This document shows, in pieces, positions 9,243-57,329 of a DNA stretch of 64,000 bases. The translations under genes were made by a program, and so were the position numbers. Position 1 is the first letter of the stretch; each line of letters begins with the position of its first letter. The notes beneath the pieces are model-generated. The model was given only the letters and a program-made list of their open reading frames with translations. It was not told where the DNA came from and did not search any database. Source of the stretch: Candidatus Stahliibacteriota bacterium (GTDB lineage: Bacteria > Hydrothermota > Tepidihabitantia > B3-TA06); assembly GCA_004375895.1 (NCBI GenBank), contig SOJW01000059.1, forward strand, positions 1 through 64,000. Direction: 5' to 3'.

Positions 9243-9270
9243 TTGACAAGCAGGCCCCTTTCCCTATTAT
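9243..9270 (+). promoter_or_regulatory. Promoter TTGACA-N16-TATTAT, -10 ends 7 nt before GTG 9278 (leaderless prediction)
   Basis: Hexamers and spacing. Confidence 0.7.
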
Positions 9271-9277
9271 TCACCTT

Positions 9278-10645
9278 GTGAGTCTAAAGATTAAGCTTCC
9301 GCTGATGGTGAGTCTTCTCGTTCTCCTAAGCGTTGCTGGGGTTAGCTACTTTCTCATCCGTTATGAACAAAAGGTGCTTGGAGAGGAGCTTACCCGCAGG
9401 GGTGAGTTGTTGGCCAAGCAGCTAGCCGGTGTTGATAGGGTGGCGTTTAATCTTATAGCACGTGATGCCGAATACCTGCGTTTTGGTGATTCGACCTTCT
9501 CGTTTGAACGTTCTTCATCGTCCTTTGAGAAGGAGCGCGTCCTGAGTGCCGCTTTAACCGAGGCTGTGGCGAGCTCCGGGGTTCTGCAAGCCGTTTTTTT
9601 CGATTGGGACGGCTTTCCAGTGCTCTACCTTGATACGGGTACTGCCGCAGAGCTGGAGGATGAAATCGAAGAGGACGTGGGTTCAGAAGGAGGGGGCTCC
9701 CTTTTTAAACATCCCGACTCCATCCTTTCAGTCTTGGGCGAACCTGCGGACGGATTTACGTTTACCTCGCCCCTGCTCATAGGTTCCGATACCCTGGGCT
9801 TCGCCCAGGTACGTATTGATCCCAGCGTTCTTGACCGCGCGATCCGCGACGCCTTGATTAAGGTTCTACCTGTGCTCGGCGGTATCCTTGGGGTAAGCGT
9901 GCTCTTATCCTTGTTATTCAGCATGTTTTTTACGGTGCCTGTATCAAGGTTAAAGAAGCATGCCCTTGAGCTCGCGAAAGGCGACCTTTCCGTCCGTGTC
10001 AAGGTGCGTTCACGGGACGAGTTGGGTCTCTTGGGTCGGGTTTTTAACAAGATGGCCCATAACCTTCAGCGCACCTACGGTGAAATCCAGGAGAAGCTGG
10101 TGGAGATAAGACGGCTCTTCAAGATGGCCACCGAGGACGGTCTGACCGGGCTTTACGTCAAACGCTACTTCCTTGAGCTCCTGGCAGGCGAGCTGCGCCG
10201 CTCCATACGCTACGAGAGGCCCCTCTCGCTTTTGATGTGCGACATAGATCACTTCAAACGAATCAATGACACCTACGGCCATCCCGCAGGTGACGTTGTG
10301 CTTCGTTCTATAGCTCGTCAACTCTCGGTCGCTACCCGCGAGGGTATAGATATTATAGGGCGTTACGGAGGCGAAGAGTTTGCGGTGATGCTGCCCGAGA
10401 CTGACGAGGAGACGGCGTGGGTTATCGCGGAGAGGGTGCGCAAAGCCGTGGGATCGGAGCCGATTTCTCTGAAGGGTATGGGTGGGGTGGGGGAGAACCA
10501 GATCACGGTAACCATCTCAGTTGGTGTAACGACCGCGAGGGAAACAACGAGTCTGGATCGTCTGATAGCCACCGCGGATCGCGCCCTTTATCTTGCAAAA
10601 GAAAACGGTCGTAACCGCTCGACTGCCCTTGCCTTAGAAAGATGA
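9278..10645 (+). CDS. Membrane HAMP-GGDEF diguanylate cyclase
   Basis: N-terminal TM, HAMP-like region, CDIDHFKRINDTYGHPAGD, RYGGEEF. Confidence 0.92.
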   Translation: MSLKIKLPLMVSLLVLLSVAGVSYFLIRYEQKVLGEELTRRGELLAKQLAGVDRVAFNLIARDAEYLRFGDSTFSFERSSSSFEKERVLSAALTEAVASSGVLQAVFFDWDGFPVLYLDTGTAAELEDEIEEDVGSEGGGSLFKHPDSILSVLGEPADGFTFTSPLLIGSDTLGFAQVRIDPSVLDRAIRDALIKVLPVLGGILGVSVLLSLLFSMFFTVPVSRLKKHALELAKGDLSVRVKVRSRDELGLLGRVFNKMAHNLQRTYGEIQEKLVEIRRLFKMATEDGLTGLYVKRYFLELLAGELRRSIRYERPLSLLMCDIDHFKRINDTYGHPAGDVVLRSIARQLSVATREGIDIIGRYGGEEFAVMLPETDEETAWVIAERVRKAVGSEPISLKGMGGVGENQITVTISVGVTTARETTSLDRLIATADRALYLAKENGRNRSTALALER

Positions 10646-11724
10646 GCAATCTCCTGGTGCTCCTGGTGATTACCTATCCCAACGGCTGGTTCGGAACCGG
10701 CCCTGCATCGGCGTCGGATGCCGGGATGATGCTTGAGCAGGGGGTCTTTGCAGTTGAGTATAACCCTGCCGGTTTGGCGTGGCTGGATTTGCTCCAGGTC
10801 GGTGTGGCGGCAGAGGGTTTGTTCCGTTACAATCTTGTAGGTGTTGCATACAAGTATCAAGACTGGCCCCTGGCTGCCTCGGTGCACAAGAATATCCATA
10901 GCTGGGGATTCTCGCTCGGTGCCGGTCATCTGACACGCCCACTTGCAATGGGAGGTGCCTTCAGCGCTTCCTTTGATACCCTGGGTCATGATCAGACGTT
11001 CTCGTTGCGTTTCGGGCTTCAGTGGCGTGAGTACGTGGGGCTATCTCTGGGGCCTGAGCTCTGGAATGCGCAGGATACCGGTCACTTGAGCGTTCTGGCC
11101 CAGGTGGGGGCGGCGGTGCCGATCCCGATTCCACAGGTTGAAGGATTGGATTTTCTTGTGGGGGCCGCGGCCGAGATCGGGCCTCCCCACTTCCGCATAG
11201 GCGGCGGGTTAGCTTACGAGCCATTTGGTGGGGTAAAGATACAGACTGTTGTTACAACCGAGGAGTGGGGGGCAGGTCTTCTTTTAGACAACGTAGATGA
11301 CCGCGGCGGTCTCTGGGTTCGCAAGGGCTTCATGGAGGAGACCTGGCAGTTCGGCATCGCATACGTGAGAAACGTACGCGCTCAAAGAACCAGGGAGGTG
11401 ATTGTATATCGCAATCTTCCCGGGCGTGTGGATACGGTCTATCTTACGCAGGCTGAACCACTTGATCAGGATACCACTACCCGTGTGGTTTCGCGTGAGG
11501 TTCGCAAGAAACAGGAGCGCCTTATGGGCAAGGCGAACCGTTACTACGCGGCCCAGCACTACGAGGATGCAATTGCGGCCTGGAGGGAGGTGATTCGGCT
11601 TGATCCTTCAAACGATCTTGCCGCACGCGCCAGGGAAGACGTAGAAGAGGTCACCGCTTTGATCGAAACCCTGGAGCGTATCCGCTCCAGCAGAGGGCGC
11701 ACCACCAGGAGTAAGCCCCAGTAA
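10642..11724 (+). CDS. Outer-membrane beta-barrel-like protein with C-terminal TPR-like segment
   Basis: N-terminal ASDAGMMLEQGVFAVEYNPAGLAWL (PorV/UPF0164-like); C-terminal ANRYYAAQHYEDAIAAWREVIRLDPSNDLA; ATGA overlap with GGDEF gene. Confidence 0.6.
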   Translation: MSNLLVLLVITYPNGWFGTGPASASDAGMMLEQGVFAVEYNPAGLAWLDLLQVGVAAEGLFRYNLVGVAYKYQDWPLAASVHKNIHSWGFSLGAGHLTRPLAMGGAFSASFDTLGHDQTFSLRFGLQWREYVGLSLGPELWNAQDTGHLSVLAQVGAAVPIPIPQVEGLDFLVGAAAEIGPPHFRIGGGLAYEPFGGVKIQTVVTTEEWGAGLLLDNVDDRGGLWVRKGFMEETWQFGIAYVRNVRAQRTREVIVYRNLPGRVDTVYLTQAEPLDQDTTTRVVSREVRKKQERLMGKANRYYAAQHYEDAIAAWREVIRLDPSNDLAARAREDVEEVTALIETLERIRSSRGRTTRSKPQ

Positions 11725-11975
11725 AACCTTAATCGATAAATAGCACGCCGACTACCCCAAAGTCCCTGGAGGTACACGAAGCAGGTTCAAGGGGTATTCA
11801 CGCGGTGTTTGTGTGAGGAATCGGATACACCTACTTCCTCAGACCGAGCCAGGCAATGAAATCTACCAACTTTTCCTCTGCTTTGCATACTTAAAAACAA
11901 GATAGTTGATGTCCTTCAGAGGGTAAAGAAAAGCGATGAAGAATGTAAGTTGTTTGTTAAATGGGGGTTAAAGAC

Positions 11976-12824
11976 TTAGTTACTGGATATTTCGGAGATC
12001 GGGAGAAAGGTCCTGCTATCGGTGGTTTCAAAGAACACGCCGTTGTTGTCGCTGGCCACATAGACGTTGCTGGCGTTGGGTGCTTTTATGTCCCAGTACC
12101 AGTCGCCGAAGTGGTTGTAGTAGCCTTCCCCTACGTGGTAGCCGCGGGGGATGGAGCCGATGTGAAAACCCACGCTGTCCCAAGGCGGCTTCTTTGGAAG
12201 CAGGGTGTCACCCAAGGCATACCAGCTCTCACCGTGGGTATTTGAGTACAGCACGTAACCGCATCCACAGCCTACGTAGCCGTGCATGTCGTCGTAGAAG
12301 TCCACGCTAAGGCAGGGGATGGGTCTCTTTCGAAAGGCTTCAGGCATATTTGCTGTTGACACCGTGTCCCATGTATTTCCGTAGTTGTGGCTGTACCATA
12401 TGTAGCCCTTACCAGGGACAGAGGGGCCGGTAGTTTCAACAGTATAACACGTATCGGTGTAGCCTACGATGTACCCGTACTGCTGACTGGGAAAGCACAC
12501 GTCGGACAGGGTGTATTGAGGCCCTAAGCTAAAACTCAAGGTATCCAGGGTATCCAGTTGCGGTATGTGATCGGCGTCTATCTCTACCTGATAGCGGCGC
12601 ACCTTACCGCTGTCGCCTACTACCCAGATAGTGTAGGGGTTATACGGATTGGTTGTTTTTACCTTGTACACCGCGTTCCAGTCGCCTTTATTGACCGATA
12701 CCGAGTCTATCAAACCAATGCGGCGGTATCGATACCGGGCCACTACAGTATCCTGGGCTTGTATCGTGCTTGCGAATGCAAGCGCCAGGAGCGCTGCAAA
12801 CACAGCGTATGATACGCGTTTCAT
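11976..12824 (-). CDS. Secreted BNR/YCF48-like beta-propeller protein
   Basis: Signal peptide; IWYSHNYGNTWDT, VLYSNTHGESWYALGD repeats. Confidence 0.6.
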   Translation of the reverse strand: MKRVSYAVFAALLALAFASTIQAQDTVVARYRYRRIGLIDSVSVNKGDWNAVYKVKTTNPYNPYTIWVVGDSGKVRRYQVEIDADHIPQLDTLDTLSFSLGPQYTLSDVCFPSQQYGYIVGYTDTCYTVETTGPSVPGKGYIWYSHNYGNTWDTVSTANMPEAFRKRPIPCLSVDFYDDMHGYVGCGCGYVLYSNTHGESWYALGDTLLPKKPPWDSVGFHIGSIPRGYHVGEGYYNHFGDWYWDIKAPNASNVYVASDNNGVFFETTDSRTFLPISEISSN

Positions 12825-12879
12825 CTCTTACTCCTTTCTTGGTTTTGCTGTCTGCAGACAAATGCGTTGTGGATTCTCC

Positions 12880-13030
12880 CCCTCCCCTTTATCCCCTCCC
12901 ACCAGGGGAGGGGTGACTCCAGGGTGAACACATCTCCTCTCACTTACCTCCCCCTTGATGGGGGAGGATTAAGGTGGGGGTGAAAGCTATTCACCCTCCC
13001 CCTACCCCCTCCCGTCAAGGGAGGGGTAAA
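12880..13030. repeat. Cluster of CCTCCCC/GGGGAGG dispersed hairpin repeats
   Basis: CTCCCCCTTGATGGGGGAGGATTAAGGTGGGGGTG and relatives; similar copy at 1960-1995. Confidence 0.75.
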
Positions 13031-14752: not shown

Positions 14753-14780
14753 TTGACACAAGCCCTAGATCGTGTAGACT
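14753..14780 (+). promoter_or_regulatory. Promoter TTGACA-N16-TAGACT, -10 ends 7 nt before thrS ATG
   Basis: Hexamers and spacing. Confidence 0.75.
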
Positions 14781-14787
14781 TACGTTA

Positions 14788-16683
14788 ATGGTTAAGATAA
14801 CGCTGGATGGCCGCTCTCGTGACGTTGAGGACGGGGTTCGTCTTCGCGATCTGGCCCCCGATGGGGCATTTGCCGCCCTGGCGAACGGTAAACCGGTGGG
14901 TCTTGCTACATCGCTTAAGGAAGATGCCGAGATTCGCTGGCTTACGTTTTCAGACGAGGAAGGACGTGAAATCTTCTGGCACTCCTCCTCGCATCTTCTG
15001 GCGCACGCGGTCAAGCGGCTTTTTCCAAGGGCTAAGCTTGCGATTGGACCTCCGATTGAAGAGGGATTCTACTACGACTTCCAGGTCGATCGTCCGTTCA
15101 CTGAGGAGGATCTTCGCAGGATCGAGAAGGAGATGCGCAAACTTGCCGCACAAGATTTGCCTATCCGGCGTCGTTTATTCCCCAAGGCAAAGCTTGAGCA
15201 CTACTACCGATTCGTGGGCGAAGACCTGAAGCTTGAGCTGCTTTCAGAGATCGCCGACGAGGAGGTAAGCCTCTACGAACAGGGTGAGTTCCTTGATCTC
15301 TGCCGGGGTCCGCATCTGGACGACACCTCCAAGATCGCCGCGTTCAAGCTCCTCTCGGTCGCGGGCGCTTACTGGCGGGGTGATGAGACAAAACAGATGC
15401 TTCAGCGCATCTACGGTATATCCTTCCCAACCCAGGAAGAACTGGATGCCTATCTTGCGCGTCTTGAGGAGGCCAAGGCGTCAGATCACCGTGTGCTTGG
15501 TCGTCAGCTTGGTCTTTACGAGATATTTGAAGAGGTGGGGCCTGGTCTGATCCTCTGGAAGCCAAAGGGAGCTATTATCCGTCGTGTTATCGAGGATTTC
15601 TGGACCGCTGAACACATCAAACGTGGTTACCAGCTGGTATCCACCCCTCACATCGCCCGTGCCGAGCTCTGGAAGATCTCAGGACACTATGATTACTACA
15701 AGAAAAACATGTTCTTTACCACTATCGAGGACCAGGAGTACGCCATCAAGCCGATGAACTGTCCGGCCCACATGATGCTTTACCTTGATTCCAAGCACAG
15801 CTACCGTGAGCTTCCCATACGCTACGCCGAGCTCGGCACCGTCTACCGCAACGAGCGCTCAGGGGTTCTGCACGGTATGCTGCGCGTGCGCGGTTTCACC
15901 ATCGACGACGGTCACATCTTCTGCACGCCCGAGCAGATTTCGGATGAGATCACCGGTGTCCTTGACTTTTGTTTGTATATGATCAGGGCGTTCGGGTACA
16001 AGGATATCAAGGTCGAGCTTTCGCTCTGGGAACCTGGGAAGCCGGGAAAGTACGCAGGCACACCTGAAAAGTGGGAAGAGGCGCAGGCGATCCTTGAGAA
16101 TGTGCTTAAGGACAATGAGGTTCCATACAAGAGAATGCCTGGTGAGGCTGTGTTCTACGGGCCGAAGATCGATATAAAGTTTGTAGATGCGCTGGGACGT
16201 CCATGGCAGGGATCGACCATCCAGTTCGATTTCAACCTGCCAGAGAGATTCGGCCTTCGCTACGTGGGAGAAGACGGTGCCGAACACGAGGTCAGGGTGA
16301 TCCATCGTGCGATACTGGGTGCCATGGAGCGCTTTGTGGGAGGTTTGATAGAGTTTTACAAAGGGAACTTTCCTCTCTGGCTCGCCCCGTATCAGGTAGC
16401 CGTTCTCACGGTTACAGATGCAGCCAAGGAATACGCATCCGAGGTGGCAGCCGAGCTTATAGACGAAGGGATCCGGGTAGTAACCGAGTTCTCGGCTGAG
16501 AAGATAGGTGCAAAGATACGGCGGTTTGAGATCGAGAAGGTTCCCTACATGATCGTGCTGGGAGCACGAGAGGCCAAAGAAGGTACCCTCACCCTGCGAA
16601 GGCACGGAGAGGGTGATCTGGGAGCGTTTTCGCTATCTGGAGCGATTAAACGCCTTAAGAAGGAAATCAAACAACGGAGGTGA
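14788..16683 (+). CDS. thrS: Threonyl-tRNA synthetase
   Basis: TGS domain, HSSSHLLAHAVKRLFP, class II motifs, KPMNCPAHMMLY. Confidence 0.97.
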   Translation: MVKITLDGRSRDVEDGVRLRDLAPDGAFAALANGKPVGLATSLKEDAEIRWLTFSDEEGREIFWHSSSHLLAHAVKRLFPRAKLAIGPPIEEGFYYDFQVDRPFTEEDLRRIEKEMRKLAAQDLPIRRRLFPKAKLEHYYRFVGEDLKLELLSEIADEEVSLYEQGEFLDLCRGPHLDDTSKIAAFKLLSVAGAYWRGDETKQMLQRIYGISFPTQEELDAYLARLEEAKASDHRVLGRQLGLYEIFEEVGPGLILWKPKGAIIRRVIEDFWTAEHIKRGYQLVSTPHIARAELWKISGHYDYYKKNMFFTTIEDQEYAIKPMNCPAHMMLYLDSKHSYRELPIRYAELGTVYRNERSGVLHGMLRVRGFTIDDGHIFCTPEQISDEITGVLDFCLYMIRAFGYKDIKVELSLWEPGKPGKYAGTPEKWEEAQAILENVLKDNEVPYKRMPGEAVFYGPKIDIKFVDALGRPWQGSTIQFDFNLPERFGLRYVGEDGAEHEVRVIHRAILGAMERFVGGLIEFYKGNFPLWLAPYQVAVLTVTDAAKEYASEVAAELIDEGIRVVTEFSAEKIGAKIRRFEIEKVPYMIVLGAREAKEGTLTLRRHGEGDLGAFSLSGAIKRLKKEIKQRR

Positions 16684-26720: not shown

Positions 26721-27177
26721 CGCTGAGGGTTTCCTTCTTCAATCTTTCAAGTATCCTTCTGTAACTGTCAAGTGTGGTCTCCATCTCTTCAAGGAATGCA
26801 AGCCTCTGGCCGTTGAGACTGCGGACAGCGGACTTGATTCCTTCAAATTCCTCCTTTGCGTGACTTAAGATTGTTTCTGCCTCCTGTTTGGCCTGTTCTT
26901 TAATTCGCTCAGCGTCCTCTTCGGCACTTTTTCGCAGTCGCTCGGCTGTCTCGTGGGCTTCTTCAAGTGTTTGCGTCAGCACTTGTTCCATCTGGCGGAA
27001 CTCGGTAGCCCGTTCCTCCAACTCGGAGACCTTGCTATTAAGAAGCTCTCTCTCGGTCTCAAGTCCCTCCAACACCGTTGCGACTTCGTAGAGAAACTCA
27101 CGTACCTCCTTGAGATCTGCACCACGCAACGCGGAACGGAACTGTTTTTTCCGTATCTCAGTCGGGGATATCTTCAT
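26704..27177 (-). CDS. divIVA: DivIVA-domain protein
   Basis: MKISPTEIRKKQFRSALRGADLKEVREFLYEVATVLE plus coiled coil. Confidence 0.85.
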   Translation of the reverse strand: MKISPTEIRKKQFRSALRGADLKEVREFLYEVATVLEGLETERELLNSKVSELEERATEFRQMEQVLTQTLEEAHETAERLRKSAEEDAERIKEQAKQEAETILSHAKEEFEGIKSAVRSLNGQRLAFLEEMETTLDSYRRILERLKKETLSDEAAN

Positions 27178-27183
27178 CTATAA

Positions 27184-27211
27184 AGTCTACCGACAAGAAG
27201 CTCGCTGTCAA
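27184..27211 (-). promoter_or_regulatory. Promoter TTGACA-N16-TAGACT, -10 ends 6 nt before divIVA ATG
   Basis: Reverse-complement hexamers at 27206-27211 and 27184-27189. Confidence 0.75.
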
Positions 27212-28548: not shown

Positions 28549-29346
28549 TCACTCCAGGGTTACTACGAATATCACGTCGGTTTTACGCTGGAGCCTGTAG
28601 GAGGGCTTGAATCGCCACTGAAGCATGGCTTTCTCAAGTTCCGAATCCCAGGCAGTTCTCCCGCTTGATTGGATAACCGTGACATCCTCGATTAGACCTT
28701 TATCGTTCACCACTATCGCAAAACGTGCGGTGACATAGGCGATGCCCTTCTCCTTCATGTTTTCTTCAAGATCAGGCATGACGTGGCTCTCCAGATCGTT
28801 AAACCCTAAATCTCCTGAGAGGGTGAAGTTGATGCCCATTGGAGCGGTGCTGTCACGAGGAGGAGGCATTTTCGCCTGGTTAGCCAGGATCTCATCCACC
28901 GAGGTGAAGGCGGCTGGGTGGAAGTCTTCTCGTCCCTTAGCTTTGATAATGGAGGTGCCGCCCTTCCCTGGTTTGCGCGCTATGTAGCGGAACTCGACCG
29001 TATCCCGGCGCAGGCTGTCGCGAGATGATCTAAACAACCAGCCGCGTAAGGTCGTGATAATCGTTGTGTCCCATTCAGGGACTTTGCTCTCCTCTAAAAG
29101 CACCGGCTCCTTTACGATCGCTCCTGAGCGATCTATCTGTATAAAAGCAACTGCGCTGAAGGTTCGGGAGGTATCAGCTTTCATCCCTTCTGTTACCGCA
29201 GGGAAGATTGTTGTAATCAGCTCGTCGGATGCGGCATCACCCCAGAGGATGAACCCGCTGCCTTGGGCTCCCCCAAGATAGGGGATAAGCTCACGGGTGC
29301 TGTCCTTCTCAGAACCCATGAGTGTTAATAAAATCAATGCAATCAC
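28549..29346 (-). CDS. TonB C-terminal-domain protein (energy transducer-like)
   Basis: VTARFAIVVNDKGLIEDVTVIQSSGRTAWDSELEKAMLQWRFKPS. Confidence 0.75.
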   Translation of the reverse strand: MIALILLTLMGSEKDSTRELIPYLGGAQGSGFILWGDAASDELITTIFPAVTEGMKADTSRTFSAVAFIQIDRSGAIVKEPVLLEESKVPEWDTTIITTLRGWLFRSSRDSLRRDTVEFRYIARKPGKGGTSIIKAKGREDFHPAAFTSVDEILANQAKMPPPRDSTAPMGINFTLSGDLGFNDLESHVMPDLEENMKEKGIAYVTARFAIVVNDKGLIEDVTVIQSSGRTAWDSELEKAMLQWRFKPSYRLQRKTDVIFVVTLE

Positions 29347-29352
29347 GATGGA

Positions 29353-29381
29353 ATAATAACGTCCTTAGCCCCTTCTGTCAA
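29353..29381 (-). promoter_or_regulatory. Promoter TTGACA-N17-TATTAT, -10 ends 6 nt before GTG 29346
   Basis: Reverse-complement hexamers. Confidence 0.7.
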
Positions 29382-29418
29382 GTGCGAGGGAATCTTCTAT
29401 CCTCATGGTTGGGTAAGT

Positions 29419-29447
29419 TTGACATAGCTGGGGGTATTGACTAGAAT
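29419..29447 (+). promoter_or_regulatory. Promoter TTGACA-N17-TAGAAT, -10 ends 6 nt before recJ ATG 29454
   Basis: Hexamers and spacing. Confidence 0.75.
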
Positions 29448-29453
29448 TCATTG

Positions 29454-31196
29454 ATGTCCCCATCTATCTACAAGACACGGCGCTGGATCAGTGAGTCTGT
29501 GGACGATCGGCTGGTGAGAGATTTTGCTTCCCACCAGGGTATTCCATATCTGCCTGCATTGGTTTTGTGGAAGCGCGGCTACAGGGATGAGGATGCGGTT
29601 ACTAGGTTTCTGAATCCATCTTTAGAGCATCTGCACGATCCCTTTGGGTTGCCCGATATGGAGCGAGGGGTTGAGAGATTGCTTGATGCGCGGCGCAGGC
29701 AAGAGAAGGTTCTTGTCCACGGTGACTACGACGTTGACGGTGTTACAGGGACTGCCCTTCTGGTGCGTGGACTTGCCAGGTTAGGGATCGGGGCTGATTT
29801 CTATCTTCCTCACCGGATGCGCGAGGGCTACGGGCTCTCTGCCAAGGCGATAGATGCAGCCAAAGAACACCAGACATCGGTGATTCTCACGGTGGACTGT
29901 GGTATCACGGCGATCGAGGAAGCACTGCTGGCAAAAGAGGCCGGGATCGATCTTGTGATCACCGATCATCACGAGCCCGGCGAGGAATGGCCCGAAGCCC
30001 TTGCTGTGGTTGATCCCAAGAGAGCGGACTCAACCTATCCCTTTGCAGAGCTTGCCGGAGTCGGGGTAGCCTACAAGCTACTTGAAGCACTTTCCCGGCG
30101 TCTTGGCGAGTCCTTGGAGCCGCTTCAAGCCGATCTCGATCTTGTTGCCATTGGCACCATCGCCGATGTCGCTCCTTTGATCGACGAGAATCGGGTCTTT
30201 GCAAGCTTCGGACTCCAACATATCCCAAAAACCGATAAGGTGGGTGTTAAAGCGCTTCTTGACGTCTCCAGACTTTCCGGTAAGCCTATAGCCGCATCCA
30301 ACGTTGCCTTCGGCCTGGCACCTCGCTTGAACGCCTCAGGCCGTATGGCCGATTCAAAGCAGGCTCTTAAGCTTTTGCTTTCAACCGACCTGGAAGAGGC
30401 AAGGAGCCTGGCCGTAAAGCTTGATCAACACAACCGCAACCGCAGACAGACCGAGGATTTGATCCTTGAAGAGGCTCGGATTCTCGCCGAACACCAGATC
30501 AGGGAAACTGATCCACGCGTGCTTGTTTGCTATCGTCCCAACTGGCATGAGGGTGTCATCGGGATAGTCGCCTCTCGTCTGGTGGATGATTTCTACCGAC
30601 CAACCATCATGTTTGCGGAAAAAGAAGGTAGGCTTAAGGGATCAGCTAGAAGTGTACATGGATTTCACCTTTATGATGCCCTGGTTGCGGTGCGCGAGCA
30701 TCTGGTTACCTTCGGCGGGCACGAGGCCGCGGCAGGGCTGGTTCTGGAAAAGGCAAAACTTGCCCGCTTCACCCAGGCGATAAACGAACATGCCATGGGT
30801 TACCCTTCGGAGGTTTTCGAACCAAGGCTCTATCTTGAGGCCGAGGTCCAGCTTGACGATCTTGATGCTGAAACCACCGCCTGTTTCGAGCGCTTTCGTC
30901 CTTTCGGTGTGGGTAATCCTGGGCCTTCTTTTGCCACTCGTGGGCTGGAGGTGGTTGGGACTCCACGGGTGTTTGGGCGTAACCATCTCAAGTTTACCGT
31001 GCGCAAGGACAAAACCACCATGCCCGTTCTTGCGTTCGGTAAATCCGACCTTATCCTTAAGCTCGAGGCAGGACGCAAGGAAGCAGTGGATCTTGCCTAC
31101 CGGATCGCTGAAGATAGTTACTGGGGAAAGAAAAGAATGCAGCTTATAGCTCAAGACCTCAAGCTACGTTACGAGCCGGAGGATTTTGATGCCTGA
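29454..31196 (+). CDS. recJ: Single-stranded-DNA-specific exonuclease RecJ
   Basis: VLVHGDYDVDGVTGTALL, TVDCGI, VITDHHEPG, ASGRMADS, GGHEAAAG. Confidence 0.95.
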   Translation: MSPSIYKTRRWISESVDDRLVRDFASHQGIPYLPALVLWKRGYRDEDAVTRFLNPSLEHLHDPFGLPDMERGVERLLDARRRQEKVLVHGDYDVDGVTGTALLVRGLARLGIGADFYLPHRMREGYGLSAKAIDAAKEHQTSVILTVDCGITAIEEALLAKEAGIDLVITDHHEPGEEWPEALAVVDPKRADSTYPFAELAGVGVAYKLLEALSRRLGESLEPLQADLDLVAIGTIADVAPLIDENRVFASFGLQHIPKTDKVGVKALLDVSRLSGKPIAASNVAFGLAPRLNASGRMADSKQALKLLLSTDLEEARSLAVKLDQHNRNRRQTEDLILEEARILAEHQIRETDPRVLVCYRPNWHEGVIGIVASRLVDDFYRPTIMFAEKEGRLKGSARSVHGFHLYDALVAVREHLVTFGGHEAAAGLVLEKAKLARFTQAINEHAMGYPSEVFEPRLYLEAEVQLDDLDAETTACFERFRPFGVGNPGPSFATRGLEVVGTPRVFGRNHLKFTVRKDKTTMPVLAFGKSDLILKLEAGRKEAVDLAYRIAEDSYWGKKRMQLIAQDLKLRYEPEDFDA

Positions 31197-31923: not shown

Positions 31924-31951
31924 TTGACATCCGTTCCGCTTTCCCTATCCT
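31924..31951 (+). promoter_or_regulatory. Promoter TTGACA-N16-TATCCT, -10 ends 6 nt before ATG 31958
   Basis: Hexamers and spacing. Confidence 0.75.
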
Positions 31952-31957
31952 CGACCT

Positions 31958-32575
31958 ATGACACCCAACCGAGGGCTGCTTTCGCGAATCTCACCGGTGA
32001 TGCTTATCGCTGTCACGATTTTGTTTATAACCATCGTGCCCTTTTTATCCCGGTGGGAGGAGTTTGCCGGAGCCGGTGCGCTCTGCGTCGTGCTTGCATT
32101 TTTAGGCCGCGCAGGATGGCGATTCTGGGGAAGATACCTCAAGATATCACTTCCCCTGATCGTCCTCAGCGTTTTCTTCAACTGGTTTCTCAACCGCTCC
32201 CAGGGTGCAGACGCGGTTTGGACTGCGTCAATAATAGGCGCTCGTTTCGCTTTGGCGCTTTTCTTCTCCTTGCTCCTCGTTTACGTCTGTACCCGCGAAG
32301 AGCTGGTCTGGGGTCTGGCCAGGCTCTCTGAGAAGCTTTTTCGCCGCCCCGTCATCGGTGAAGTTCTTGCTTTGGCGCTTCTCTCCATACCGTTCTTTCT
32401 TGAGTCTTTATCCAAGGTCAGGAGATGGAAGGAGATTCCCGAAGCCGTCGCGGGTGTCTTCGGGGATGCACAGGGTATCGTTACCCATCCTATCGAGATC
32501 AAAGGCAAGCAGCCCGGATGGGTGCTGTTTTCAGCGAGTGTGGTTCTTCTGGCTGTAGCCGTGGTGGTAAGATGA
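31958..32575 (+). CDS. Integral membrane protein, CbiQ/ECF T-component-like
   Basis: Multiple TM helices; weak resemblance only. Confidence 0.45.
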   Translation: MTPNRGLLSRISPVMLIAVTILFITIVPFLSRWEEFAGAGALCVVLAFLGRAGWRFWGRYLKISLPLIVLSVFFNWFLNRSQGADAVWTASIIGARFALALFFSLLLVYVCTREELVWGLARLSEKLFRRPVIGEVLALALLSIPFFLESLSKVRRWKEIPEAVAGVFGDAQGIVTHPIEIKGKQPGWVLFSASVVLLAVAVVVR

Positions 32576-36506: not shown

Positions 36507-36507
36507 C

Positions 36508-38552: not shown

Positions 38553-39732
38553 AGTAGGAGAGAAGTTTTCCTACGGCGTTTATCACGTCCTCCACATCTT
38601 TATCAGTCAGAGCAGGGGAGAGGGGCAGGGAAAGGGTGCGCTGTGATATCCTTGCCGCTACCGGGAAATCATCCGGCTTAAATCCGAAGGTGTTTTTGTA
38701 GAAGCTGTGCAGATGAAGGGAGATGAAATGTATGCCTGCACCGATGCCTTCCGCCTTCAGCGCCTCGAGAAACTCGTCCCTTGTTATACTCAGTTTCTCC
38801 AATTCCAATCTCACCGGATAGAGGTGGCGGGCGTGACGGCCTTCTCCAGGCTCAGGCGGGGTTTCTATTCCTTTCATCTGGCTGAGCGCGGCGTCGTATG
38901 CCTTCCACACCTCAGTCCGCCTCTTCCAGCTATCCTCGATTCTCTCCATCTGGTGAATGGCCATCGCGGACTGCAGGTCGGTCAGGTTCAACTTGTAGCC
39001 AGGGGCAACGGTATCGTAAAACTTGAAACCCTTTTCGCGGAAGCGATTCCACGCGGTTCTGGTTATTCCGTGCATCCTTAGAAGCTTGAATCGCTTGGCC
39101 CAGTCGTCGCGGTTGGTAGCAATCATACCGCCATCGGCAGTGGTGATGTTCTTGGTGGCGTAGAAGCTGAAGCAGGCCGCATCCCCCAGCACCCCAACGT
39201 GCTTGTCCATGTAACGAGCCTCGATCGCATGTGCCGCGTCAACTATGACGGCAATGCTGGCATACTCTGCCAGATAGAGTATCGCCTCCATGTCAACGGG
39301 GTAGCCATGAAGATGCACTGGAATAACCGCCCTGGTTTTGGTGGTGATTTGCTCCTGGACATTAACTGGATCAATATTTCCGCTTCGTTCATCAACATCC
39401 GCGAAGCGAACCTTTGCCCCGTGGTGAAGGATCACGTTGGCGGTTGATGGATAGGTCATGGGAGATGTTATGACCTCGTCTTCAGGTCCCAGCTCAAGCA
39501 TACCAAGCGAGAGGTAAAGCGCGGCGGTGCAAGAGTTGACCGCGATAGCATTTTTGGCTCCGGTATATTCGGCAAACATCTGCTCGAAGCGCTCGGTTTT
39601 CGGGCCATGGCCGATCCAGCCTGAGCGAAGGGTATCGGCCACCTCGGCTATGTCCTCTTCCCTGATGTCAGGCTTACCGAAGACAAGGAACTCTTCACGT
39701 ACGGGCTTCCCGCCCTCAATCGCTGGCTTCAT
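38542..39732 (-). CDS. DegT/DnrJ/EryC1/StrS-family aminotransferase
   Basis: VNSCTAALYLSLGMLELGPEDEVITSPMTY; CFSFYATKNITTADGGMI. Confidence 0.93.
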   Translation of the reverse strand: MKPAIEGGKPVREEFLVFGKPDIREEDIAEVADTLRSGWIGHGPKTERFEQMFAEYTGAKNAIAVNSCTAALYLSLGMLELGPEDEVITSPMTYPSTANVILHHGAKVRFADVDERSGNIDPVNVQEQITTKTRAVIPVHLHGYPVDMEAILYLAEYASIAVIVDAAHAIEARYMDKHVGVLGDAACFSFYATKNITTADGGMIATNRDDWAKRFKLLRMHGITRTAWNRFREKGFKFYDTVAPGYKLNLTDLQSAMAIHQMERIEDSWKRRTEVWKAYDAALSQMKGIETPPEPGEGRHARHLYPVRLELEKLSITRDEFLEALKAEGIGAGIHFISLHLHSFYKNTFGFKPDDFPVAARISQRTLSLPLSPALTDKDVEDVINAVGKLLSYYAR

Positions 39733-39738
39733 TAAGCC

Positions 39739-39766
39739 ATTTTAGCCGAATTTGACCGTCAGTCAA
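39739..39766 (-). promoter_or_regulatory. Promoter TTGACT-N16-TAAAAT, -10 ends 6 nt before ATG 39732
   Basis: Reverse-complement hexamers. Confidence 0.65.
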
Positions 39767-39792: not shown

Positions 39793-39820
39793 TTGACAAA
39801 CTTCCAAATCGGCTTAAGCT
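39793..39820 (+). promoter_or_regulatory. Promoter TTGACA-N16-TAAGCT (leadered; AAGGAGG before ATG 39838)
   Basis: Hexamers and SD. Confidence 0.6.
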
Positions 39821-39837
39821 TTTCAAGGAGGTTATGT

Positions 39838-40803
39838 ATGAGAAAGCTTTGGAAGCTTGCGTTGAGCTTGGGGGTTTTGACCCTTGCCATAGTTGGATGT
39901 AACCAGGATACTGATGGTGCAAATGCCCCGGATTTGCTTGAGCCTGCTGATGGTGCGGTAATAAGTGAAGCCCCAACCTTTGTGTGGAGTTCGGTTCCCT
40001 TGATTGATGACTACCGCATCGTGATAGACAGCGGTTCATATACTCCTCCTTTTAAACTAAGCGGGATAAGTTTTGACGACCCTATTATCGAAAAGGACCT
40101 TTACGATACCTTCTACACCATGTCAGGGGCTGATTTCGATAATCTGGAAGAGGGTACTTACTACTGGAAGGTGGCATCTTTGAAATATCCTTCGGGCGGA
40201 AGTGCACCTGATGTTAACTGGAGCGAGGTTCGAAGCTTTGCAATAGAGAAACCGGAGCCTTCCGGCCTTGACACCACCTACTTCCCGTTCGGGATGGATT
40301 ACGAGTGGACTTATGAGAAGCATTGCTGGGACTATTATGGCGACGAGAGAACCGATTCTTACTATACGATTACCATTCGGGTCGTAGATTCAAACATTGC
40401 TCCTGGCGGTTATACTTTTGTTTTGGAGGGAGGATGTTTCTATGACTTGGATTGCGACACGATAAAAATCGTGGATGAGAAGATAACGGCCTTTCCAAAC
40501 GACCCCTGTGGAACATCAATTGTTTCTCTTATTCCCGATACGAGTGAGGCGAGGAATCTTTTATCGATTCGGTATCGAGGTGACACTTTGAATATGGGAT
40601 ACCATTTTGAGATGTATCCTCCAGATCAGCATTCGTACGATAACACAGATTGTTATACCTTTAGGCTTAGAGGAGTAGGATTAATAGATCAGACCTATTT
40701 CTGTTCCTGGTGGGATGGAATGGGTTGGGATCCTGGGGGGTATGGTAGTCATTATACCCTCCTTTCCTTCCGCAAGGGTGGGAAGGTGGTGTGGCGGCGC
40801 TAA
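39838..40803 (+). CDS. Secreted lipoprotein of unknown function
   Basis: Lipobox LAIVGC; Fn3-like segment; start trimmed from track ORF. Confidence 0.7.
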   Translation: MRKLWKLALSLGVLTLAIVGCNQDTDGANAPDLLEPADGAVISEAPTFVWSSVPLIDDYRIVIDSGSYTPPFKLSGISFDDPIIEKDLYDTFYTMSGADFDNLEEGTYYWKVASLKYPSGGSAPDVNWSEVRSFAIEKPEPSGLDTTYFPFGMDYEWTYEKHCWDYYGDERTDSYYTITIRVVDSNIAPGGYTFVLEGGCFYDLDCDTIKIVDEKITAFPNDPCGTSIVSLIPDTSEARNLLSIRYRGDTLNMGYHFEMYPPDQHSYDNTDCYTFRLRGVGLIDQTYFCSWWDGMGWDPGGYGSHYTLLSFRKGGKVVWRR

Positions 40804-40829: not shown

Positions 40830-40857
40830 TTGACAAGATCAGGTTAGCTACTAGGAT
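40830..40857 (+). promoter_or_regulatory. Promoter TTGACA-N16-TAGGAT, -10 ends 6 nt before ATG 40864
   Basis: Hexamers and spacing. Confidence 0.75.
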
Positions 40858-40863
40858 TGTACT

Positions 40864-42957
40864 ATGATAACTTTGTTGCTGTCGCTCCTTGCTTCGTGGG
40901 GACAAGGTTTATACGAGGTTCCGGATATGCCTGTTACTCCTTTCACCTCCTCCGACTACAACTTCGAGGTTCTCGATCACTGGCCTTACGGGTCGGGGTT
41001 CTCGGTGCTGCGCGATAGTGACTACCTCTTCTACACCAACGGTGCGGTGCTGCAGATAGGAGAGGTAAACTCTTCAGGTGAAGTTAGCTGGTTCTCAGAG
41101 CTTAGATTTTCAGGCATGGCCTATACCATGGTGCGCTTCGAGGATCGGCTCTACGTTGCAATTGACGATCAGGGTGTGGCTATCGTGGATATCTCCTTAC
41201 TTGATGATCCACAGCTTATTAACCTGTTTCCTGCCGGCGGGCGGGTCTTCGGTCTTGAGGTCCGAGGTGATACACTCTACACGGCGATGGGTTCAGAAGG
41301 TCTTGAGATATACGACTGCCGCAACCCGTCTAATCCCCAGCTCCTGGGTTCTCTTTTCGGTTTTAATCTTCGTTCGCTTGAGCTTTACGGCGATCTACTC
41401 TACGCCACAGATGTATCAACTGGCCTTTTGGTGCTGGATGTCTCCGATCCCACCAATCCGGTTGCTATCGGAGAACTTGGTCTTACAGGCCAGCACTACG
41501 GGCTTGCACTCGATTCATTGCGCGATAAGGCGGTGGTGTGTTCGTTCGACGGAGGTATGCATGTTGTTGACGTTTCAATGCCTTACGATCCTGTTCTTTT
41601 CGCTTCGATACCGATATTCGTGGCGTGGGATGTTGATCTGGACGATACGCTCGCCTACGTGGCTTCATGGGATGACTCTCTGCACATAATCAACATCCTT
41701 TCAGGGGAAGGGATTGGCGGGCTGGGTTTTGATACCCTGGGTGTTACGGGTGTGTGGCCTTATGATGTCTCGGTAGAAGGTGATTACGGTGCGGTGGCCG
41801 GTTTTTTGGGTTCGTGGTGGGTGTTTGAGGTATCCGATCCGGAAAATCCTTTTGTGACCGACGGCGAGGCGCGGGGCGGGGTCTCGGACGTTGTCGTTGC
41901 AAACGATCGCTGGATTGTTCTGGGAATGCATGGTTCAAAGCTTGTGTTCTTTGAACGTTCAGACTCGCTTATACCCGTGGGTTCAATCTCTTCCGCCGAT
42001 TGGCCCAGGGATCTTGAGATTCGCGGCGACACACTATACGTTGCCGAGAGTTGGGCCGGGCTTGGACTTTATCATATGGATGATCCGGTAAGCGGGGTCA
42101 ACTTGATCTCTCGCCTTAGTATGGATGGGGTCCATGTCTGGGCTTTGGAAGTTGATTCAAGTTTTGCCTATCTTGCCTGCGGCGATTCCGGCCTTATTGT
42201 GGTTGACCTTTCCAATCCGTCCTTTCCAAGCGAGGCGGCGCGTATTCACCTGGATGCTCGCGCGCTTTCGGTATTCAAGCGCGGGGATACAGCCTATGTA
42301 GGCTTCGAGGAATCAGGCATAGGCCTGGTTGATGTCAGCGTACCGGACTCCCCGTTTTTCTTAGAAACCAAACCTACTGCAGGCGGTGTGCTTGATATGG
42401 CCTTGCAGGACTCGCTACTTTTCGTAGCCCAGGCAACCGAAGGTGCGGCTATCTACGACATCTCTGGATTGGATTGGCAACTGCTATCTACCATCCCGAC
42501 CGAGCACGTTAACTTTTCCCTTGTCCTGGAGGCTGGCAATCTTTTTTTAGCACATGGAGCGGCCGGAATCTACGCATACGACGTAGCCAACCCATCCTTT
42601 CCGCATCTTGTTGGGAGTTTGAACACCGGCGGGGAGTCGCGAGACATTGCTTCTCTCGGCGATACCCTCCTGGTTGCAGACGGATATGACGGGTTGCTGC
42701 GTGTGCTTTTCCTTGGATTAGGGATAGATGAATCCTCGGCGTTGCCTGCCTCTGTATTAGATGTATGGCCAAATCCCTTTAGTTCCGTTTTGTATTTCAG
42801 CAGACCGGTCCAGGCCCGGCTCTACGACGCCTCGGGTAGACTTCAGGCGAACATTCATGGGGCCAGATTTGACGCCTCCGAGCTGCTTGCTGGGGTGTAT
42901 TTTATTCGGGGCAAGAACTGGTACTGCAAGGTCGTGAAAGCTCCTTCCTCTCGATGA
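40864..42957 (+). CDS. LVIVD-repeat beta-propeller secreted protein with C-terminal sorting-like domain
   Basis: LLVLDVSDPTNPVAIGEL-type repeats; C-terminal VWPNPFSSVLYFSRPVQARLYDASGRL...GVYFIRG. Confidence 0.85.
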   Translation: MITLLLSLLASWGQGLYEVPDMPVTPFTSSDYNFEVLDHWPYGSGFSVLRDSDYLFYTNGAVLQIGEVNSSGEVSWFSELRFSGMAYTMVRFEDRLYVAIDDQGVAIVDISLLDDPQLINLFPAGGRVFGLEVRGDTLYTAMGSEGLEIYDCRNPSNPQLLGSLFGFNLRSLELYGDLLYATDVSTGLLVLDVSDPTNPVAIGELGLTGQHYGLALDSLRDKAVVCSFDGGMHVVDVSMPYDPVLFASIPIFVAWDVDLDDTLAYVASWDDSLHIINILSGEGIGGLGFDTLGVTGVWPYDVSVEGDYGAVAGFLGSWWVFEVSDPENPFVTDGEARGGVSDVVVANDRWIVLGMHGSKLVFFERSDSLIPVGSISSADWPRDLEIRGDTLYVAESWAGLGLYHMDDPVSGVNLISRLSMDGVHVWALEVDSSFAYLACGDSGLIVVDLSNPSFPSEAARIHLDARALSVFKRGDTAYVGFEESGIGLVDVSVPDSPFFLETKPTAGGVLDMALQDSLLFVAQATEGAAIYDISGLDWQLLSTIPTEHVNFSLVLEAGNLFLAHGAAGIYAYDVANPSFPHLVGSLNTGGESRDIASLGDTLLVADGYDGLLRVLFLGLGIDESSALPASVLDVWPNPFSSVLYFSRPVQARLYDASGRLQANIHGARFDASELLAGVYFIRGKNWYCKVVKAPSSR

Positions 42958-53280: not shown

Positions 53281-54141
53281 TTATATGGAACTTTCCTCAT
53301 CTTGCAAGCTTAGTCTATTGCCCGCAGGTGAATTGTCAATGGTTTGTTGTGCGTTCGATGCATCAGGGTTGTGTTCTGCAATCTCTGCGAAGGCCAGGTA
53401 GGCGGTATGCGAGATCATCCTTTCCCTCGGTCGTGCCCCCTGCGGACGGATCAGCATCTCTCGCAGCATTACCTCCCAGACCTCGAACCGGGTGAACCCA
53501 TGCTTTCCTAAAGCCTTGCGGGTTTCTTGCAGCTGTTCTGTTGTAGGGCTCAGGGATACCCACCGGCCTGCACATACGAGGGCCTTGGCAGCGTGAGGAA
53601 CGATACCCCATGGTTCCGGCACGTCCACAACGCACACGTCAATCCCTCTTACCCCGAATCCTTGTTTTTCTACGTCGCGCAGCTCGAAGGTTACGAATTC
53701 TTCCATACCCAGTCTGGCAACGTTGGCCATGGCTACCTCAAGGAACTCCGGACGGCGCTCAAAGGAATATACGTGGCCTTGAGGCTGCACGTAGCGTGCA
53801 AGGATGAAGGTTAAAGCGCCTGAGCCGGAACCAACCTCTGCTACGCGAACCCCAGGGGCTATGGATGCCCTCAAAAGCATGTAGCCGACGTCCTTTGGAT
53901 AGGCTATGGTTGTTCGTCGCTTGACCCCTATCATCAGGTCGGCTAAGGACGGGCTCAGAAGTGTGAAGCTAACCCCCATGTGGGTTTTTACTACTTCTCC
54001 GTAGTTGCATCCTATGATCTGGCCCCAGGGGATGCGTCCCTTGTGGCACTCGAAGTCGCCTTTTTCGAGCACCCTCCTCAGGTAGTGAAGGCGTTCATCG
54101 TGGTAGAAGAAGACCTGCTCGCCAGGCGTTATTCCTGCCAT
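53281..54141 (-). CDS. trmI: tRNA (adenine-N1)-methyltransferase, TrmI family
   Basis: IIGCNYGEVVKTHMGVSFTLLSPSLADLM; VAEVGSGSGALTFILAR. Confidence 0.88.
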   Translation of the reverse strand: MAGITPGEQVFFYHDERLHYLRRVLEKGDFECHKGRIPWGQIIGCNYGEVVKTHMGVSFTLLSPSLADLMIGVKRRTTIAYPKDVGYMLLRASIAPGVRVAEVGSGSGALTFILARYVQPQGHVYSFERRPEFLEVAMANVARLGMEEFVTFELRDVEKQGFGVRGIDVCVVDVPEPWGIVPHAAKALVCAGRWVSLSPTTEQLQETRKALGKHGFTRFEVWEVMLREMLIRPQGARPRERMISHTAYLAFAEIAEHNPDASNAQQTIDNSPAGNRLSLQDEESSI

Positions 54142-55319
54142 ATTCGCAGCAAGATGGATAAAACGGTTTTGCCCGGCCGCGAGGATTTCACCCTGAGCTT
54201 GCCGTGGTGAAGCTGTTGGATAACGCGGCGGGAGAGCGCAAGGCCGATCCCCCAGCCGTGCTTCTTGGTGGAGAATCCGGTTCTGAAGAGATCCCGGGTG
54301 TGTTTTACCTGGATTCCCGCTCCGGTGTCGGTTATCGTTATCTCGTAGCAGTTGCTCTTTTCTGCCTTCTTGCCTGCTACGGCTATCTTCCCCGACTTGC
54401 GTCCTATGGCGTCGATGGAGTTGCGGATAAGGTTCTCAAGCGTCCAGGAGATGAGTGTAGGATCAATGAGCAGGCGCGCATTCTCAGAGACCTTCACCTC
54501 AAAGTTGATGCGAGAGGGGGCGCGGTGCTGCATGAAGCGAACCGTCTTCCTTATTATCGGTTCAATCTCATGGGGCTCAAGACGCGGCTTGTCTCCGATG
54601 CGTGCAAAGCGATCCAGGATCCCCTTGATGCGTTCAAGATCGGCTCCTATCTCTTTCGATGCCTCTGCGTCCAGCTTGGGGCGAATCAGTTCACTCCACC
54701 CCAGGAGCGAGGAGACCGGGGTTCCCAGTTGATGGGCGGTCTCACGTGCGAGAGCCACCCATAGCTTTTCCTGTTCCCGACGTGCTGAGGCCACAATGAA
54801 TACGAATCCTAAGATAACAAACAAAACGATGAAGGATATCTGAATAAGGGGGAAATACTGCAACATGGTCCATGATTTAGGCAACCCGTAGTGCAGCACA
54901 CTTAAGGTAAGGGTGTCTAACCCCAGGGTGTCTAGTGTCAGTGGGTCCGTAACAGGTACTACTGCCCGAATAGGGATAGGCTCATGTTCGCGGTCGAGTT
55001 TTTGTATGAATCGAGGCAGTGCATCGGGGATGGTATCGCGGTGAGGGACGTTTCGAAAGCTCTGAGGGTTGCCGGCGCTGTCCGTTATCACCACCGGGAA
55101 GTCTACCTGACTCACTATCTCTTCAAACAGGAGATTTTCAAGGAGCATCTGGGTTTCTGGTGATGCCAGTGAGCGTATGTAGCTTGCATAGAGTCTTGAA
55201 CGGAAAAGGGTTTCTTCTTCGAGTTTCTTGAGGAGCCGCTGAGAGTAAAAGGCCCAGAATACCGCTAAGGCCAGGAGTCCGGCCACGGCGTATATCTGAA
55301 TGAATCTACGCAGGTTCAA
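54129..55319 (-). CDS. Sensor histidine kinase
   Basis: ALARETAHQLGTPVSSLLGW H-box; LENLIRNSIDAIGR N-box; DTGAGI, GWGIGLALSRRV. Confidence 0.9.
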   Translation of the reverse strand: MNLRRFIQIYAVAGLLALAVFWAFYSQRLLKKLEEETLFRSRLYASYIRSLASPETQMLLENLLFEEIVSQVDFPVVITDSAGNPQSFRNVPHRDTIPDALPRFIQKLDREHEPIPIRAVVPVTDPLTLDTLGLDTLTLSVLHYGLPKSWTMLQYFPLIQISFIVLFVILGFVFIVASARREQEKLWVALARETAHQLGTPVSSLLGWSELIRPKLDAEASKEIGADLERIKGILDRFARIGDKPRLEPHEIEPIIRKTVRFMQHRAPSRINFEVKVSENARLLIDPTLISWTLENLIRNSIDAIGRKSGKIAVAGKKAEKSNCYEITITDTGAGIQVKHTRDLFRTGFSTKKHGWGIGLALSRRVIQQLHHGKLRVKSSRPGKTVLSILLRIWQE

Positions 55320-56245
55320 AGCGAAAGGCTTACTAGAGCTTCTTCGATTGCCTCAAGCAGAGGTGTTCCTTTAGGGGGATGTGTAATTACCTTGATGCAG
55401 GGTGAGGAAGGCAGATTGAGGCGGGCCTTATCTGGCAGGATAACAACGGACGGTGTTCCTAAAAGGTAGGCTAGCTCGAAGCTGCGATCCGGTTTACCTA
55501 TGTAGGCAGAGGCTGATGCAAGTAAACTTACCTTTATCTGCGGTTCTTCTTCCATCCATGTCTCGGCTCCGAAGACCTTCATCCCGCCGAGGCGTTCAGC
55601 ATCAATGGAGATTGATGAGAGAAGGTAGGGGGTTTTGTTCCCGGATCTATGTCCATGTTTCTTTAGCCACTCGTTGGCCCTTTGTTGGACAACTTGAAGA
55701 CGGGGGAGGCTTTCCTCGATCTTTCCTCCGCACGCCAGATACCTGCTCATAAACTGGGCCCGCTTTCGAAGATCCGCTTCCTTGTCCGGCACGAACAGGA
55801 TATTAAAGTAGGGGAAGAGTCCTTCGGCCTGGTAGGTGATTCGTAGTTTGGCCTCAGAAAGGATGGCAAGCTCAGGTAAAGGGGATGGGTCAAGATCCAC
55901 GAATAAATCGAAGGAGGATTTAGCGAACCTTTCTTTCAGGGCTTTGAAGGCCTTTGAGCCGTGAGAAGGTGTCTCTGTGAGATCAATCTTTTCCTGAAAT
56001 ATGGTGTTGAGCCCCGAAAAAAGCAGCTCTGCGTCCAGCGGCGAAAGCACAGTAATCTTGCGCCCCTTTTTAGCTTTTTTCAGAGCACCTGTAATATAAA
56101 GCGAGAAGAGCGTATGTGGTGCTCGCTCTGCAAGACGCACAAGCACATTCCTGGCTCCGTGCAACTCGGCATGGAAGGAAATCTCTTTCCTGGCAAGACG
56201 CGACTTACTCCACGCAAGGTATATTGCTCTTGTCAGTGCTGTCAT
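55316..56245 (-). CDS. GT9/heptosyltransferase-like protein
   Basis: Fold-level resemblance only; start set at ATG 56245. Confidence 0.45.
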   Translation of the reverse strand: MTALTRAIYLAWSKSRLARKEISFHAELHGARNVLVRLAERAPHTLFSLYITGALKKAKKGRKITVLSPLDAELLFSGLNTIFQEKIDLTETPSHGSKAFKALKERFAKSSFDLFVDLDPSPLPELAILSEAKLRITYQAEGLFPYFNILFVPDKEADLRKRAQFMSRYLACGGKIEESLPRLQVVQQRANEWLKKHGHRSGNKTPYLLSSISIDAERLGGMKVFGAETWMEEEPQIKVSLLASASAYIGKPDRSFELAYLLGTPSVVILPDKARLNLPSSPCIKVITHPPKGTPLLEAIEEALVSLSL

Positions 56246-56250
56246 ACTCA

Positions 56251-56278
56251 AGTCTAGACAGAATCTGGGTTATGTCAA
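56251..56278 (-). promoter_or_regulatory. Promoter TTGACA-N16-TAGACT, -10 ends 5 nt before ATG 56245
   Basis: Reverse-complement hexamers. Confidence 0.7.
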
Positions 56279-56351
56279 GAACAACAGATGCCTCGATTAC
56301 TTTCCAGACATTATAGTGTTTATAACTTGTCCATCGCATCCGAGGAAGAGG

Positions 56352-57209
56352 TTAAGGCTTAATCGCGGTAATCTCCAAGGAGATATCCAACGCCTTTGCG
56401 GAGTGGGTGAGTGCACCTACTGAGATGTAGGCAACCCCTGTGAGTGCTATATCCCGGACGGTCTCAAGACTCACACCACCCGAGGCCTCAAGCTCCACCT
56501 TTCCCTTGACAAGCTGGACCGCCTCACGCATCATATCCAGGCTCATGTTGTCGAGCATAATACGGTCAATACCGTCTATCTCGAGAGCCTCGCTGACCTG
56601 ATCCAGGGTCGCACACTCAACCTCGATCTTTAAATCTCCGTGGGAGTTCTGTGCAGATTTAACCGCGGCCGCAAGCGAACCGCAAGCCGCGATGTGGTTA
56701 TCCTTGATAAGAATCATATCGTAGAGCCCCATGCGATGATTGTAGCCCCAGCCACATCGGACAGCCGCCTTCTCAAGCACACGCAGACCAGGCGTTGTCT
56801 TTCGGGTATCAAGGATTTTCGCACGGGTACCGTCCACAGCGGCTACAAAGCGAAAGGTGAGGGTAGCGATGCCGGAGAGGTGTTGAAGGAAGTTAAGTGC
56901 TGTCCGTTCGGCCACAAGGATTCCTCTGGCAGGCCCTGAAACCTTGGCTAACTCATCACCTACGTTTATCCTCTCCCCATTGTTAAACAAGAAGGTTACT
57001 TCAACCCGATCCTCTACCTGACGAAACGCCTCCTTGGCCACCTGGGTCCCTGCCAGCACCCCTTCCTCCTTGCAGAGTATAATGGCTTCGGCCTGAGCTC
57101 CTGCAGGTACCGTGGCAAGAGTTGTAACATCGCCGATTCCTATATCCTCAGCAAGCGCTCTTCTAACGCTGTCCTTTACCGCGTCTTCGTAGGAATAACG
57201 ACTATTCAT
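56352..57209 (-). CDS. nadC: Nicotinate-nucleotide pyrophosphorylase
   Basis: ERTALNFLQHLSGIATLT; DTRKTTPGLRVLEKAAVRCGWGYNHRMGLYDMILIKDNH. Confidence 0.96.
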   Translation of the reverse strand: MNSRYSYEDAVKDSVRRALAEDIGIGDVTTLATVPAGAQAEAIILCKEEGVLAGTQVAKEAFRQVEDRVEVTFLFNNGERINVGDELAKVSGPARGILVAERTALNFLQHLSGIATLTFRFVAAVDGTRAKILDTRKTTPGLRVLEKAAVRCGWGYNHRMGLYDMILIKDNHIAACGSLAAAVKSAQNSHGDLKIEVECATLDQVSEALEIDGIDRIMLDNMSLDMMREAVQLVKGKVELEASGGVSLETVRDIALTGVAYISVGALTHSAKALDISLEITAIKP

Positions 57210-57215
57210 CTCGTT

Positions 57216-57243
57216 ATTGTAGCCGAATAACTAAAGAGGTCAA
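57216..57243 (-). promoter_or_regulatory. Promoter TTGACC-N16-TACAAT, -10 ends 6 nt before nadC ATG
   Basis: Reverse-complement hexamers. Confidence 0.65.
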
Positions 57244-57295
57244 CTAATCTAAGCGATTCATTCATGATAAGTTCAAGATTCTCTCCTCCTTCAGG

Positions 57296-57323
57296 TTGAC
57301 GAAGCCTTGCTCAGAGCTATACT
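57296..57323 (+). promoter_or_regulatory. Promoter TTGACG-N16-TATACT, -10 ends 6 nt before hicB ATG
   Basis: Hexamers and spacing. Confidence 0.7.
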
Positions 57324-57329
57324 GAACGG

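Follow-up and report, generated by a model that had tools for sequence, protein, structure and literature searches.

Promoter-start units in the window

The window, a stretch of 64,000 nucleotides, belongs to a 2.2-Mb draft MAG of WOR-3, a phylum named Ca. Stahliibacteriota at NCBI. Its ThrS is 94% identical to that of the Ca. Stahlbacteria MAG CSMAG_1024 and 76% identical to that of a 'candidate division WOR-3' MAG. Eleven genes of the window have a start codon that lies only a few nucleotides after a promoter. These putative leaderless units are listed below, together with two contrasting sites at which a like promoter is followed by a leader with a Shine-Dalgarno (SD) sequence. Each entry gives the -35, the spacer in nt, the -10, the gap in nt (or the SD motif) and the start codon with its position.

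9243..9280, + strand: GGDEF/HAMP protein, putative leaderless unit, TTGACA-16-TATTAT-7-GTG 9278
14753..14790, + strand: thrS, putative leaderless unit, TTGACA-16-TAGACT-7-ATG 14788
27175..27211, - strand: divIVA, putative leaderless unit, TTGACA-16-TAGACT-6-ATG 27177
29344..29381, - strand: TonB C-terminal domain protein, putative leaderless unit, TTGACA-17-TATTAT-6-GTG 29346
29419..29456, + strand: recJ, putative leaderless unit, TTGACA-17-TAGAAT-6-ATG 29454
31924..31960, + strand: 205-aa ORF, putative leaderless unit, TTGACA-16-TATCCT-6-ATG 31958
39730..39766, - strand: DegT/DnrJ aminotransferase, putative leaderless unit, TTGACT-16-TAAAAT-6-ATG 39732
40830..40866, + strand: LVIVD-repeat protein, putative leaderless unit, TTGACA-16-TAGGAT-6-ATG 40864
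56243..56278, - strand: 309-aa ORF, putative leaderless unit, TTGACA-16-TAGACT-5-ATG 56245
57207..57243, - strand: nadC, putative leaderless unit, TTGACC-16-TACAAT-6-ATG 57209
57296..57332, + strand: hicB-like antitoxin (hicBA pair), putative leaderless unit, TTGACG-16-TATACT-6-ATG 57330
5273..5328, + strand: contrast, SD leader after a like promoter, TTGACA-16-TATTAT ... GGAGG ... ATG 5326
39793..39840, + strand: contrast, short SD leader, TTGACA-16-TAAGCT ... AAGGAGG ... ATG 39838

The eleven leaderless-type sites had been put forward in the original prediction, and all of them read letter for letter at these coordinates. Spacers had been described as mostly 16 nt and the -10 as ending 5-7 nt before the start codon; the spacer is indeed 16 nt at nine of the eleven sites and 17 nt at the other two (TonB, recJ), and a gap of 5-7 nt followed by ATG or GTG is present at every one. 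Searching both strands of the 64-kb window with the pattern TTGACN{17,18}TANNNTN{5,7}RTG returns exactly these 11 matches, each placed at a gene start as the head of its gene, and dinucleotide shuffles of the window (n=100) yield a mean of 0.25 matches and a maximum of 1. Pfam and NCBIfam confirm the identities of thrS, recJ, nadC, DivIVA, GGDEF, DegT, LVIVD, TonB C-terminal and HicB/HicA. Two gene labels had to be dropped, as neither gains support from Pfam at 1e-4 or from NCBIfam at 1e-5: 'CbiQ-like' for the 205-aa ORF (31958), which matches nothing in Pfam or NCBIfam, and 'GT9-like' for the 309-aa ORF (56245), which has no Pfam match. The six promoters that had been set apart as leadered (2006, 5273, that of the 14665 gene, 39793, 43021 and 44875) are present as well. 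SD-like sequences come after the promoters at 5273, 39793 and 44875 and that of the 13079-14665 gene.

Back-to-back leaderless-type promoters occupy the ~110-120 bp between two divergent pairs, TonB/recJ (29346-29454) and nadC/hicB (57209-57330). The hicB/hicA toxin-antitoxin pair, with its leaderless-type hicB, spans 57330-57777, and a uvrB-like gene lies directly downstream at 57770.

Genome-wide statistics

Across the genome from which the window derives, the pattern (ATG only) occurs at 251 sites. Reversing the pattern leaves 4 matches, and moving the ATG to 25-27 nt after the same promoter leaves 63. Site density is ~115 per Mb, compared to ~1 per Mb in genomes of other families. A genome-wide scan of the distance d from the -10 to the start codon found the enrichment at 5-8 nt that had been predicted. 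Among 199 promoter-like sites in a 456-kb sample of the genome, ATG stands at d=5, 6, 7 and 8 in 23, 25, 10 and 10 cases, over a background of ~3 per position outside this peak; GTG, TTG and CTG show no peak of this size at d=5-8. Few starts fall at d=9-14 and a second rise appears at 15-20 in the histogram of this sample; leaders too short for an SD seem to be avoided.

The promoters are of the sigma-70 type, with a TTGACA-like -35 and a TATAAT-like -10 at 16-18 nt, and RpoD is present with TRERIRQIE in its region 4.2. Spacers of 15, 16, 17 and 18 nt were counted 12, 152, 47 and 15 times, respectively, in the 456 kb. The spacer optimum of 16 nt is unlike that of E. coli, which is 17. In an unweighted logo built on codon-usage starts the -10 is blurred because its distance to the start varies.

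With genes called from codon usage only by a homemade caller, and operon heads separated from interior genes by distances only, the start codon lies 5-8 nt after a promoter -10 at 55 of 213 operon heads and at none of 121 interior genes in the 456-kb sample (Fisher, 1.3e-12). The 'genome-wide grammar' of the original prediction is thus present genome-wide, at a share of ~26% of operon heads and not at most genes. Samples of three other members of the window's class place leaderless heads at 17-28%. An SD-like 4-mer precedes only 3 of the 55 leaderless-type heads, as against 90 of the 158 other heads (1.2e-12), and it is found before 59 of the 121 operon-interior genes. Given that most of the 55 heads go without an SD, which is found at other heads and at interior genes, two start modes coexist in this genome, as had been proposed. 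Choosing starts by codon usage only gives the same start codon at nine of the ten window heads found by the caller; the exception is the 31958 ORF, the start of which is placed at 31997 instead.

The CCTCC tail of the 16S (anti-SD) is intact in all 13 complete 16S genes read from relatives, ruling out an altered anti-SD as the driver in these relatives; the 16S of the window's own genome is truncated, ending at nt 902. Loss of ribosomal protein S1 is likewise ruled out as the driver, as rpsA is present in this and in the compared genomes. With the anti-SD intact in relatives and rpsA present, we conclude that a mode was added and that SD initiation was not lost.

Conservation among orthologs

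Orthologs of the eleven genes from the same genus and family keep TTGAC/TANNNT and the start codon at d=5-8 in 37 of 39 cases. In units with the same spacer, substitutions amount to 0/120 in TTGAC and 0/72 at T1, A2 and T6 of the -10, under a search that required TANNNT and a match of 4/6 or better to TTGACA, so that the -10 zero is forced and the -35 zero partly favoured. In the same units, substitutions affect 119/411 spacer positions and, over the upstream 20 bases, 243/480. The GGDEF/HAMP unit (GTG 9278) is kept in relatives G001, G002, G005 and G006. The TonB protein, which starts with GTG in the window, starts with ATG at d=5-6 in G002, G003 and G004, while the LVIVD protein, with ATG in the window, has GTG in G001 and G004 at an unchanged distance. 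The nadC start of G005 is shifted by two codons, giving d=7 from the -10. The spacer of recJ changes from 17 to 16 in G003 and G004 with a constant -10-to-start gap, and in G005 the recJ unit is absent.

Of 30 thrS orthologs from across the class, nearly all have the unit, even at protein identities as low as ~52%, with the other upstream DNA being unrelated. Here too ATG and GTG swap at the same distance, and the proteins align from residue 1; the ortholog of G002 has d=9. For divIVA, the start codon at 27177 is supported by a DivIVA domain that sets in at residue 3.

Distribution in the phylum and a second promoter type

A survey of 147 genomes from the phylum shows the whole of the window's class to be rich in the pattern, at 58-306 per genome; several other families have it less strongly or lack it. 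The 38 comparison genomes, mostly from other phyla, have 0-32 matches each. Taking few matches as a loss of leaderless starts proved wrong for family f23, which uses another promoter; the samples of f17, f19, f21, f22 and f26 are small.

In f23 the TTGAC version is missing, and 70 of 129 heads (~54%, in a 309-kb sample of G123) carry TANAAT at 6-9 nt ahead of the start codon, with no -35 signal upstream of TANAAT. Counting upstream from the -10 box, a C is found at 6 nt and a T at 8 nt. The motif TTCN5TANAATN8ATG is specific to f23: it occurs 40-117 times per genome in all eight f23 genomes (G116-G123), and none of the remaining 139 genomes has more than 16 copies. A change in sigma-70 region 4.2 as the origin of the -35 loss is not supported, since the TRERVRQ recognition helix is kept (numbering after E. 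coli RpoD). The conserved TTC precedes the inferred start site by ~18-20 bases and TANAAT by 6-8 bases. At -17/-18 the beta' zipper makes contact with the Z-element (PMC5101437). The position of the f23 TTC fits such an element, which would be a beta' zipper/sigma region 3.0 contact. Tentatively, and at a likelihood we rate just short of even, leaderless transcription may have been kept within the phylum while the promoter was rebuilt, with the TTGAC-16-TANNNT class on one side and, in f23, a Z-element-like box replacing the -35 on the other.

Discussion

We consider it very probable that in these genomes sigma-70 promoters are fused to start codons, giving rise to leaderless mRNAs beside SD-led starts. 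The layout of the units, their statistics, the exclusion of the SD, the restriction to operon heads and the evolutionary conservation are all legible in the DNA. So are the features expected of leaderless genes: a fixed short distance between TANNNT and the start, beyond chance, without an SD and at first or single genes only. With only 5-8 nt between the -10 and the start codon, transcription should start at that codon or next to it. The 5-8 nt enrichment, the SD exclusion, the head restriction and the promoter-start spacing conserved in orthologs support leaderless initiation, the reading put forward in the original prediction. In the mechanism that we propose, a promoter of the housekeeping sigma-70 type, with a -35 TTGAC, a preferred spacer of 16 nt and a -10 TANNNT ending 5-8 nt before the start codon, would direct RNA polymerase to initiate at the first base of AUG or GUG, or a base or two upstream. 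The resulting leaderless mRNA would be translated independently of an SD, presumably by 70S binding at the 5'-terminal AUG. The leaderless mode would serve about a quarter of operon heads, with SD-led translation from farther-upstream promoters and at interior genes. The interpretive part of this scheme comprises the exact transcription start, an mRNA with AUG at its 5' end and the binding of 70S ribosomes.

Could the promoters be genuine and the true starts lie farther downstream behind an SD, the ATG or GTG by the -10 being a chance triplet? Raw sequence leaves gene starts ambiguous, and codon usage did call the 31958 ORF from a downstream position. Nonetheless, we regard this as quite improbable: the ATG peak at d=5-8 rises far over background, to an extent that GTG, TTG and CTG do not reach; orthologs hold the start and its distance through an ATG to GTG change or a two-codon shift; SDs are depleted at promoter-adjacent starts; and the proteins themselves point to these starts, with the DivIVA domain from residue 3 and thrS orthologs aligning from residue 1. 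That the pattern is a chance or compositional artefact, common in the DNA and beside ATG at random, has no finding in its favour and next to no probability in view of 11 matches in the window against 0.25 in shuffles, of 251 in the genome against 4 reversed and 63 displaced, and of the mere 0-32 matches in the 38 comparison genomes.

A closer contender is that the mRNAs are near-leaderless, with transcription setting in 1-4 nt ahead of the start codon and leaving a very short, non-SD leader; a shift of 1-3 nt upstream would give such mRNAs. The choice of start by RNA polymerase is flexible by a few bases, and both the spread of d over 5-8 and the d=9 of one thrS ortholog speak for such a leader. 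However, with a modal d of 5-6 the canonical start site falls at about the A of ATG, and strictly leaderless transcription is the simplest reading for most sites, so that we consider a short leader unlikely, if clearly less so than the two explanations above.

Leaderless initiation of the kind proposed here has known counterparts. Of 953 bacterial genomes, 207 were predicted to have leaderless genes with TANNNT ~12 nt ahead of the start, with a concentration among Actinobacteria (~20% of genes) and Deinococcus-Thermus (~40%), and WOR-3 is not named among the phyla with leaderless genes in that 2011 list (Zheng et al., 2011; PMC3160421). Those TA-led genes (PMC3160421) resemble ours in having TANNNT ~12 bp upstream of the start and in being leaderless when operon-proximal and SD-led when distal, whereas a strong -35 TTGAC with an optimum spacer of 16 nt goes with the -10 here. 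In Deinococcus radiodurans the -10-adjacent leaderless mode was tested by reporter experiments (PMC12340547). As in our case, the -10 TANNNT of Deinococcus-Thermus lies close to the start codon, at a set distance, and the mode coexists with classical promoters and RBS; however, the -10 alone suffices there and a -35 only boosts, while TTGAC is conserved in the window's class (0/120 substitutions, as above). Family f23 is nearer than the window's class to this -35-independent type. Mycobacterium tuberculosis, from an unrelated phylum, also has extensive leaderless mRNAs (PMC3898074), with proof from RNA-seq there as opposed to DNA evidence in WOR-3. Toxin-antitoxin transcripts are often leaderless in that species (PMC8485053), similar to the leaderless-type hicB of the window. 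In the literature searched, no paper connects 'leaderless' to WOR-3 or brings up Shine-Dalgarno together with Stahlbacteria. The mode is known in bacteria (Actinobacteria, Deinococcus-Thermus) and, as far as the literature searched shows, appears to be undescribed before in WOR-3/Stahliibacteriota.

A deep uncultured lineage hereby joins the short list of bacterial groups rich in leaderless genes. The comparative evidence is unusually clean. Throughout the class, a start codon and its promoter evolve together as a single unit. Gene callers that depend on SDs only will misplace starts in WOR-3 genomes. Moreover, the sharp contrasts between families of one phylum make the gain, loss and rebuilding of the start mode directly testable. 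Finally, recJ switches mode within the class, being leaderless in the window's own genus and some families and SD-led in others, which makes it useful for dating the changes between leaderless and SD-led starts.
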